Shown: positions 50,843 through 51,966 of the stretch, one piece after another
How positions within the stretch are numbered: position 1 is the stretch's first letter
Layout: each line of letters opens with the position of its first letter
From: Ramlibacter tataouinensis
Lineage (GTDB): Bacteria; Pseudomonadota; Gammaproteobacteria; Burkholderiales; Burkholderiaceae_C
Direction: 5' to 3'
DNA: 64,000 nt
Assembly (NCBI RefSeq): GCF_027941915.1
Contig: NZ_CP116009.1
Span: forward strand, 2,666,001 to 2,730,000
The notes under the pieces: model-generated
Databases searched by the model: none
What the model was told of the DNA's origin: nothing
Seen by the model: the letters and a program-made list of their open reading frames with translations, nothing else
Made by a program: the position numbers and the translations under genes

Positions 50843-51574
50843 TCAGGAGGCGGGTGCGCCTTCTTCCTTCGATTGCCCGGCCTGGGTGCGCTGCGCCTGG
50901 CGGCGGGCGGCCAGCCAGCCGGCGCCCAGCACGCCGACGATGGCCAGCACGTAGACGGCCCAGCGCGAGGCCGTGGCCTGCACGGTCTGGGGGTCGAACA
51001 CGCCGTCCAGCCACTGCTCGCCGACGATCATCTTGGCCGCCGTGAAGGCCAGCACGGCCGCGCCGAGCTGGATGATGATGGGGAAGCGGTCCACCAGCTT
51101 GAGCACCATGGTGCTGCCGAACACCACGATCGGGATGCTCACCAGCAGGCCGATGACCACCAGGTCGAACGAGCCGTGGGCGGCACCGGCCACGCCCAGC
51201 ACGTTGTCGATGCCCATCAGGGCGTCGGCGATCACGATGGTCTTCATCGCGCCCCAGAAAGTGGAGGCGACCGCCCCGCCGTGTTCGTCCGATTCCTCGT
51301 GCGGGGCGATCAGCTTGTAGGCGATCCACAGCAGGCCCAGGCCGCCGACCAGCATCAGCCCCGGAACCTTGAGCAGCCAGACCACGCCGATGGTCATCAC
51401 CGAACGCACGGCGATGGCACCGACGGTGCCCCAGACGATGGCCTTCTTGCGCAGGTGCTCGGGCAGGTTGCGCGCGGCCAGCGCGATGACGATGGCGTTG
51501 TCGCCCGCCAGCACGAGGTCGATGAGGATGATGGCCAGCAGCGCGGAGAACCAGGCCGGCGAAAGGAATTCCAT
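50843..51574 (-). CDS. TerC-family membrane protein (Alx-like)
   Basis: A 243-residue integral membrane protein with about seven helices. Conserved TerC motifs are LAIILIDLVLAGDNAIVIALAA (acidic pair D/D in the first helix) and VIADALMGIDNVLGVAG in the second half. TerC/Alx proteins are implicated in Mn2+ efflux and metal homeostasis. The 5' region carries a yybP-ykoY riboswitch, which supports a Mn-related role. The end of the protein is hydrophilic (RRQAQRTQAGQSKEEG). A rho-independent terminator follows. ATG at 51574. Confidence 0.94.
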   Translation of the reverse strand: MEFLSPAWFSALLAIILIDLVLAGDNAIVIALAARNLPEHLRKKAIVWGTVGAIAVRSVMTIGVVWLLKVPGLMLVGGLGLLWIAYKLIAPHEESDEHGGAVASTFWGAMKTIVIADALMGIDNVLGVAGAAHGSFDLVVIGLLVSIPIVVFGSTMVLKLVDRFPIIIQLGAAVLAFTAAKMIVGEQWLDGVFDPQTVQATASRWAVYVLAIVGVLGAGWLAARRQAQRTQAGQSKEEGAPAS

Positions 51575-51654
51575 GGTGAGAAGGGCTCCAGGTCTTGACT
51601 TCGGGGTGTCCGGGGCGACGGCGCCGGCGCAAGGCCGACGTCCGGCACCCAGGC

Positions 51655-51790
51655 CGTCGTCGAAGGTCTTGCTCGGCTTGATGAGTCCGGCCCGGCGTGC
51701 CGGAAGCCGCGCAGCGGCTTCGTACTGACGACACGTCGATCGGCGCGGCCGGGATCGCCGGCGCGCCGGGGAGCTACTCCCCTTCGCAGG
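51655..51790 (-). promoter_or_regulatory. yybP-ykoY (Mn2+) riboswitch upstream of terC
   Basis: On the minus strand the region shows the conserved features of the yybP-ykoY/Mn2+ aptamer: GGGGAGTAGC (51773-51782), CGTCAG (51725-51730) and GCAAGACC (51665-51672). P1 pairs CGAAGG (51781-51786) with CCTTCG (51661-51666). Just downstream an inverted repeat CGACGGC / GCCGTCG (51653-51659 and 51616-51622) could form the alternative structure. The aptamer lies about 80 bp before the terC ATG. In E. coli the same class controls alx, a TerC homologue. The remaining region 51791-51966 shows no other element. Confidence 0.85.
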
Positions 51791-51966
51791 CCGCGATTAG
51801 AACACGCAGGCTGCACAGCCGGAATACGTAGCGTCCGCATGTCCCGGCGTCGGCGAGGGGGCTTGCAGCAGGCGTGCGCCGGCGACCCGCTCCGCCGCTT
51901 GCGCTGCGCCAGCGGCCTGCCGCTGCGGGCGCCCCGGCGACCGCGCGATCCACCGACAATCGCGGC

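Follow-up and report, generated by a model that had tools for sequence, protein, structure and literature searches.

A conserved leader upstream of terC

Does the RNA that precedes the terC gene of Ramlibacter tataouinensis sense Mn2+, and if so, how might it control the gene? The window, by which we mean the entire 64,000-nucleotide (64 kb) stretch of DNA that was analyzed, carries a terC gene at 50843-51574 on the minus strand, coding for a 243-amino-acid protein of the TerC family, YjbE subfamily. The initial annotation described three conserved segments, a P1 stem and a downstream inverted repeat before this gene, and we find all of these elements on the minus strand and in the expected order. 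We are highly confident that positions 51659-51790 form an aptamer of the yybP-ykoY class of Mn2+ riboswitches, of the subtype represented by E. coli alx, located at the 5′ end of the terC mRNA. The class is already known, and the subtype is under-annotated.

All features described here lie on the minus strand. The conserved segments are GGGGAGTAGC (51773-51782), CGTCAG (51725-51730) and GCAAGACC (51665-51672). P1 is formed by a 5′ strand, CGAAGG (51781-51786), and a 3′ strand, CCUUCG (CCTTCG in the DNA; 51661-51666), and this helix is 98.2% paired across 110 aligned leaders. The 3′ strand is the putative switch strand, to judge from covariation and from the competing-helix test presented below. 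L1 comprises GGAGUA on its 5′ side (51775-51780), which is invariant in 110 of 110 leaders, and AAGA on its 3′ side (51667-51670), whose last three bases are likewise invariant in all 110. Next is P1.2, in which GCUC (51771-51774) pairs with GAGC (51671-51674); this helix is 96.1% paired and shows little variation, being fixed in part by the way that the leaders were selected.

The remaining substructures vary more. The P2 hairpin (51742-51767) has changes on both sides in all six of its counted pairs and is absent in 12 of the 110 relatives. Within the P3 arm (51693-51738), 11 of 12 pairs show two-sided changes. According to the alignment of the window sequence to model R1 (defined below), this arm contains P3.1 (51732-51738 with 51693-51699, including one A.C mismatch in the window), P3.2 (51717-51721 with 51703-51707) and the internal loop L3, UCGUCAGUAC/CGG. 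The P4 hairpin (51675-51692), with the pairing GGC/GCC in the window, is 95.2% paired, and all four of its pairs carry two-sided changes.

The end of P1 is separated from the AUG of terC, which starts at 51574, by 86 nucleotides, and the ribosome binding site of the gene can be read from the sequence as GGAG (51586-51589). The octamer CAAGACCT, which belongs to the 3′ core of the aptamer (51664-51671), has an exact second copy beside this site (51590-51597). The second copy might reflect chance or might act as a decoy.

The predicted metal-sensing adenosine lies at 51726. All 110 leaders have A here, and 95 of them were chosen with no selection on L3. We take this residue to be the equivalent of A41 of the Lactococcus lactis riboswitch, a position mapped by the alignment to model R2 (also defined below) and partly by comparison with the L. 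lactis sequence, and it would likewise match A48 of the Xanthomonas oryzae RNA. In the L. lactis RNA, Mn2+ is reported to be held by five phosphoryl oxygens and by N7 of the invariable A41 (PMC9190785). For X. oryzae, it has been reported that P1.1 is stabilized by Mn2+ and that mutation of A48 abolishes this effect of the metal (PMC6754395).

Conservation and covariation

Of 200 genomes of the family, 32 contain the three motifs in this order and none contains the reversed pattern; the arrangement of the motifs is more than chance. TerC homologs (E ≤ 1e-20, distant copies counted) are present in 185 of the same 200 genomes. Among the best 80 of 523 related terC loci, which include Ramlibacter, Curvibacter, Polaromonas, Variovorax and Pseudorhodoferax, 77 carry the leader, as do all 30 of the terC loci L002-L031, the window's own among them. 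The three exceptions are two contigs that begin less than 230 nucleotides from terC (L112 and L147, the latter retaining the 3′ part of a leader) and one locus with no visible leader (L173).

Alignment A1 comprises 110 distinct leaders, 15 of which come from loci found with the motif pattern. Every leader was picked by a pattern that fixes L1 and the 3′ end, whereas L3 played no part in the selection of the other 95. The invariance of L1 and of the 3′ end is therefore partly a product of selection. The alignment leaves out exact duplicates, leaders that do not fit the pattern (including the Alx-type leaders of L004, L005 and L013), and the three exceptional loci named above.

Pairing was scored over all 110 leaders for helices P1, P1.2, P2, P3.1, P3.2 and P4. 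Overall, 90.4% of the cells are paired, and two-sided changes occur in 23 of the 32 pairs; P2 pairs least consistently, in 71% of its cells. Covariation scores 0.320, compared with at most 0.104 for versions of the structure that were slid by one to three columns. On each of five measures, all 500 shuffles fall short of the observed value; relatedness inflates these shuffle tests, but it is retained in the slid versions. The leader thus shows the class junction of P1-L1-P1.2, P2, P3 with L3, and P4 with support from covariation, and P2 is present in the window.

Relationship to known Mn2+ riboswitches

The check suggested in the initial annotation, a search with the covariance model RF00080, returned no match to the leader, and by the reckoning of that annotation this amounts to a refutation. 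The Rfam 15 model detects nothing in the window at its cut-off, and searches of the 401 and 301 bases surrounding the leader are likewise empty at E ≤ 10. We do not count this negative result because RF00080 at its cut-off also misses the E. coli K-12 leaders of alx and mntP, both of which are reported to be Mn2+ riboswitches (PMC9603457). The alx leader (L223:4372-4501) gives no match at E ≤ 10, and the mntP leader (L224:2462-2574) scores 41.6 bits, under the cut-off of 45. The RF00080 alignment has no pairs for the strands of P1 and extends for nearly 70 positions after the GCAAGACC region.

We therefore relied on two reciprocal models. R1 was built from A1, with the window sequence among its 110 rows. 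In the window it gives the whole aptamer (51659-51790) 106.0 bits, and the next place scores 7.2 bits. When run unfiltered over 30 loci recognized by RF00080 (92,913 bases), R1 yields 30 matches at E ≤ 0.01, one per locus. The E. coli leaders of alx and mntP are also its top matches in the stretches that contain them, at 38.8 and 20.7 bits, respectively, ahead of a next score of 6.4. R2 was built only from those 30 aptamers recognized by RF00080, with no terC leader included, although its structure is not independent because its alignment was fitted with R1. Over the 64 kb window, R2 places the terC leader first with 44.9 bits, followed by a score of 17.0. R2 gives the E. coli mntP leader 53.8 bits and, at E ≤ 0.5, detects 16 of another 18 terC leaders, several with weak scores. 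At that threshold it misses the other two terC leaders and the E. coli alx leader, and one match, in L099, lies away from any leader. The two models together establish end-to-end homology between the window leader and accepted members of the yybP-ykoY class. The proposal of the initial annotation, a yybP-ykoY-class aptamer before a TerC-family gene, is thus upheld by the reciprocal models and by covariation, and also by the name of the protein subfamily to which the gene belongs (TIGR03717, 'R_switched_YjbE').

At E ≤ 1, R1 has matches in at least 92 of 200 genomes of the family, and at E ≤ 1e-4 it identifies at least 88 places in at least 85 genomes. In the class, at least 18 of 274 genomes have a match at E ≤ 1 and at least 6 at E ≤ 1e-8, three of these six being in the window's own family. 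Both searches used stricter filters, so that these counts are lower bounds. RF00080 exceeds its cut-off in 97 of the 200 family genomes. Judged among the matches listed, however, it does so at none of the 88 places that R1 identifies at E ≤ 1e-4; only two of these places are among the RF00080 matches listed (to E of about 1), both under the cut-off at 24.6 and 17.9 bits. We consequently rejected RF00080 as a judge of this leader: its searches of the window, the short stretches and the 200 genomes were all negative here, and the E. coli controls make that outcome uninformative. Rfam 15 RF00080 recognizes only part of the Mn2+ riboswitch class, and annotation at its cut-off under-counts these RNAs, such that even the E. 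coli alx and mntP leaders are missed.

Two of the three strong R1 places outside the family were checked with family models, and both precede TerC-family genes. The gene downstream is of the Alx type in one case (L206), and in the other (L208) it starts about 430 nucleotides downstream. The other TerC copies of the genome, at C1:2809521 and C1:3597103, have no aptamer in the regions examined (C1:2808900-2810300, L225, and 3596400-3597900, L226), where the best R1 score is 3.2 bits. The Rfam terC RNA, RF03067, shares its name with the gene and presumably has a gene context like that of the terC leader. This 59-position model has no match at the leader and only three weak matches in the same genome, all elsewhere and below the cut-off, and we rejected this identity.

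Aligned with R1, the leader of E. coli alx shares the architecture of the window leader, with L3 as UCGUCAUUACG/CCGG and with AAGGGGAGUA and AGACCUU at its ends. Neither leader matches RF00080, and the E. coli gene is annotated as coding for the Mn(2+) exporter Alx. The E. coli RNA differs in having no P2 in this alignment and in escaping R2, whereas the window leader has P2 and is found. We take TIGR03718 to be the Alx subfamily. The window protein falls far under the TIGR03718 cut-off and over that of YjbE, Alx being another TerC subfamily.

The same genome carries a second Mn riboswitch, at C1:3740891-3741073 (L001:1501-1683), to which RF00080 assigns 90.6 bits. Like other aptamers recognized by that model, it aligns end to end with the window leader and shares its helices, L1, the invariant adenosine and GCAAGACC. 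In contrast to the window leader, it carries UCAACA rather than UCGUCA in L3, has a shorter P4, controls a GDT1-family (PF01169) gene and is recognized by RF00080. The L. lactis yoaB Mn2+ riboswitch (crystal structure 4Y1I) resembles the window leader by position in its L1/L3 docking nucleotides and in its P1.1 switch helix.

Manganese and the associated gene

The terC protein scores 158.2 bits with PF03741 and 224.3 bits with the NCBIfam model TIGR03717 (cut-off 134.8), whose subfamily name suggests that a link to a riboswitch was already known. The claim of the initial annotation that terC is a gene for Mn homeostasis is reasonable as an inference, with the family name TIGR03717 as its support; likewise, the leader precedes a gene that is assigned to Mn homeostasis by its TerC family name only. 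Other systems are informative in this regard. Reporters of E. coli alx and mntP are described as Mn-induced (PMC9603457). In Vibrio parahaemolyticus, terC is reported to be Mn-induced, and a terC mutant grows poorly in weakly acidic medium with high Mn (PMC13274385). In that report, the Vibrio TerC is closer to Alx than to the rest of the TerC proteins that were compared, and the part played by TerC proteins in Mn homeostasis is called controversial. Control by Mn2+ is probable for the terC gene of the window and, by extension, for the terC group that is widespread in Comamonadaceae and their allies.

The anatomy of the leader is observed directly; that it binds Mn2+, in which direction the metal acts and what TerC does are predicted by analogy with the class. 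It is conceivable that the conserved leader adopts the same fold for another signal, such as a different metal or alkaline pH, and that Mn2+ is not its main cellular ligand. R1 scores the E. coli leader of alx higher than that of mntP, and alx is reported to respond to alkaline pH as well as to Mn2+ (PMC9603457). The terC leaders also carry UCGUCA in L3 where aptamers recognized by RF00080 have UCAACA. However, the invariant adenosine and L1 are retained (L1 partly through selection), and the Mn induction of terC elsewhere (PMC13274385) points to the metal itself. We therefore regard another main signal as unlikely and favor Mn2+ as the ligand.

Expression platform

The best -10-like hexamer starts 13 to 15 nucleotides before P1 in 97 of 110 leaders, a count made without a shuffled control, and the window example is TCTAAT (51796-51801). 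This spacing suggests that the transcript probably begins at the edge of P1. When the window stretch is scanned for two hexamers, which is the stricter test, no promoter is found.

In the mechanism that we propose, Mn2+ would dock L1 against L3 and stabilize P1. When Mn2+ is absent, downstream sequence would capture the 3′ strand of P1, resulting in low expression of terC. Mn2+ would thereby raise terC expression, and TerC might then handle the excess of the metal.

A competing helix of at least seven contiguous pairs can form between the 3′ strand of P1 and a partner within about 50 nucleotides downstream in 96 of 110 leaders, compared with 15% of linkers whose letters were shuffled singly. 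In 11 leaders that have CCUUUG in P1 and a competing helix of at least six pairs, the partner is CAAGG or CAAAG in 10 and CGAAG in one. The window is a weak case and departs from this trend. Its near hairpin, the downstream inverted repeat CGACG../..CGTCG (51635-51662), overlaps P1 only slightly, at the last bases of the stem, and has only four contiguous pairs. In the minimum-energy fold, the 3′ strand of P1 pairs instead with CGAAGUC (51597-51603), which lies just before the ribosome binding site and might serve as a second partner.

An overlap between P1 and a competing hairpin is also found in the terminator design of L. lactis, and yoaB of that species is reported to use an intrinsic terminator (PMC11087558). 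A terminator/antiterminator switch of this kind is one alternative here. However, no U tract follows the competing hairpin in the terC leaders: at least five T within the next eight nucleotides are found in none of the 96 leaders, and there is no terminator-like site between 51500 and 51900 of the window. The lack of such a tract makes intrinsic termination improbable. Rho-dependent termination or control of translation is more likely. The 50 nucleotides that follow the hairpin contain 38% C and 25% G, compared with 29% and 30% in the 100 nucleotides before the leaders, and such a C-rich stretch is compatible with Rho, although this is weak evidence. For the Vibrio parahaemolyticus riboswitch, the report cited above describes no drop in RNA reads (PMC13274385), which speaks against simple termination there.

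A specific translation switch was equally doubtful in our assessment. In this scheme, the 5′ strand of L1/P1.2 (GGGGAGUAGCUCC) would base-pair with the ribosome binding site of terC in the absence of Mn2+. This pairing does appear in the minimum-energy fold of the window leader, whose -106.8 kcal/mol is 5.3 below the best fold in which P1 and P1.2 are enforced. However, the 88 leaders with a mapped site, among them that of the window, have a mean pairing probability of 0.098, lower than the mean of 0.135 for shuffled sequences, and a probability above 0.5 is reached in 8 of the 88 leaders compared with 12.6% of shuffles. (Another 22 of the 110 leaders were left out because they have no GGAG at the expected place or no mapped start.) Shuffling the window leader itself also gives more than 0.5 in 7 of 10 cases, and thus L1 easily gives pairing with the ribosome binding site by chance. 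The shuffle test with 88 leaders led us to reject an anti-Shine-Dalgarno role of the L1/P1.2 strand as a conserved mechanism, and we retain capture of the 3′ strand of P1 as the preferred model. The base after GGAG, which had also hinted at an anti-Shine-Dalgarno role, is a pyrimidine in 71 of 88 leaders and in 48 of 81 background genes, a comparison that involves related sequences and a rough background.

A second aptamer-like leader is present on the minus strand of L004, L005 and L013, before a terC gene that by eye resembles the Alx type. The stretch before its start codon is complementary to CAAGACCUUU, exactly in L004 and nearly so in L005 and L013. This second leader looks like a translation switch.

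The adjacent arginase gene

The divergent neighbor of terC in the window codes for arginase (279 bits), a Mn enzyme, and the initial annotation raised the idea of a local Mn logic shared by the two genes. A common regulatory unit is extremely improbable, given that the aptamer and the -10-like element point toward terC and that, among the best 80 of 523 relatives, arginase occurs in only one of the 62 terC loci that span at least 6 kb (at a distance of about 2 kb from the leader), whereas the leader itself is kept in 77 of 80. Across 140 loci with terC or the leader, the only arginase genes are those of the window's own two copies and of L098, which is that one example; the neighborhood is not conserved, and we rejected the shared logic.

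Distribution and natural variants

We tentatively suggest that the alx-like subtype is a coherent branch of Mn2+ riboswitches that is invisible to the current Rfam model and widespread in this family of Burkholderiales (85 of 200 genomes with R1 at E ≤ 1e-4, and before TerC-family genes in the loci examined). Its members might sometimes lack P2, might sense Mn2+ and pH together, and might act through Rho or translation rather than an intrinsic terminator, but this proposal as a whole is possible rather than probable. For Herbaspirillum, one yybP-ykoY RNA, assigned by Rfam, has been described before mntP, and no TerC is named in the portion of that report considered here (PMC7011215). In a search outside subscription papers and regulon databases, no title or opening of an abstract dealt with the alx-like subtype in Comamonadaceae; earlier notice is quite possible. 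The interest of the subtype lies in its being missed by Rfam 15, in its natural variants that lack P2 and in a platform that appears to operate without an intrinsic terminator.

The 12 leaders with no P2 have fewer than 12 nucleotides at the corresponding place (L018, L031, L096, L097, L101, L105, L117, L124, L128, L140, L157 and L171). Together with the rest of the 110 aligned leaders, they are natural variants with which the requirement for each part of the aptamer can be tested. Another variation affects P1.2, where 17 of the 110 leaders (L016, L020, L130 and L142 among them) have A in place of G at position 1, reading UAAC for UAGC, which creates an A.C mismatch. Of the 13 such leaders with a genus name, 11 are from Polaromonas. 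The R1 alignment shows UAAC in the E. coli alx leader as well.
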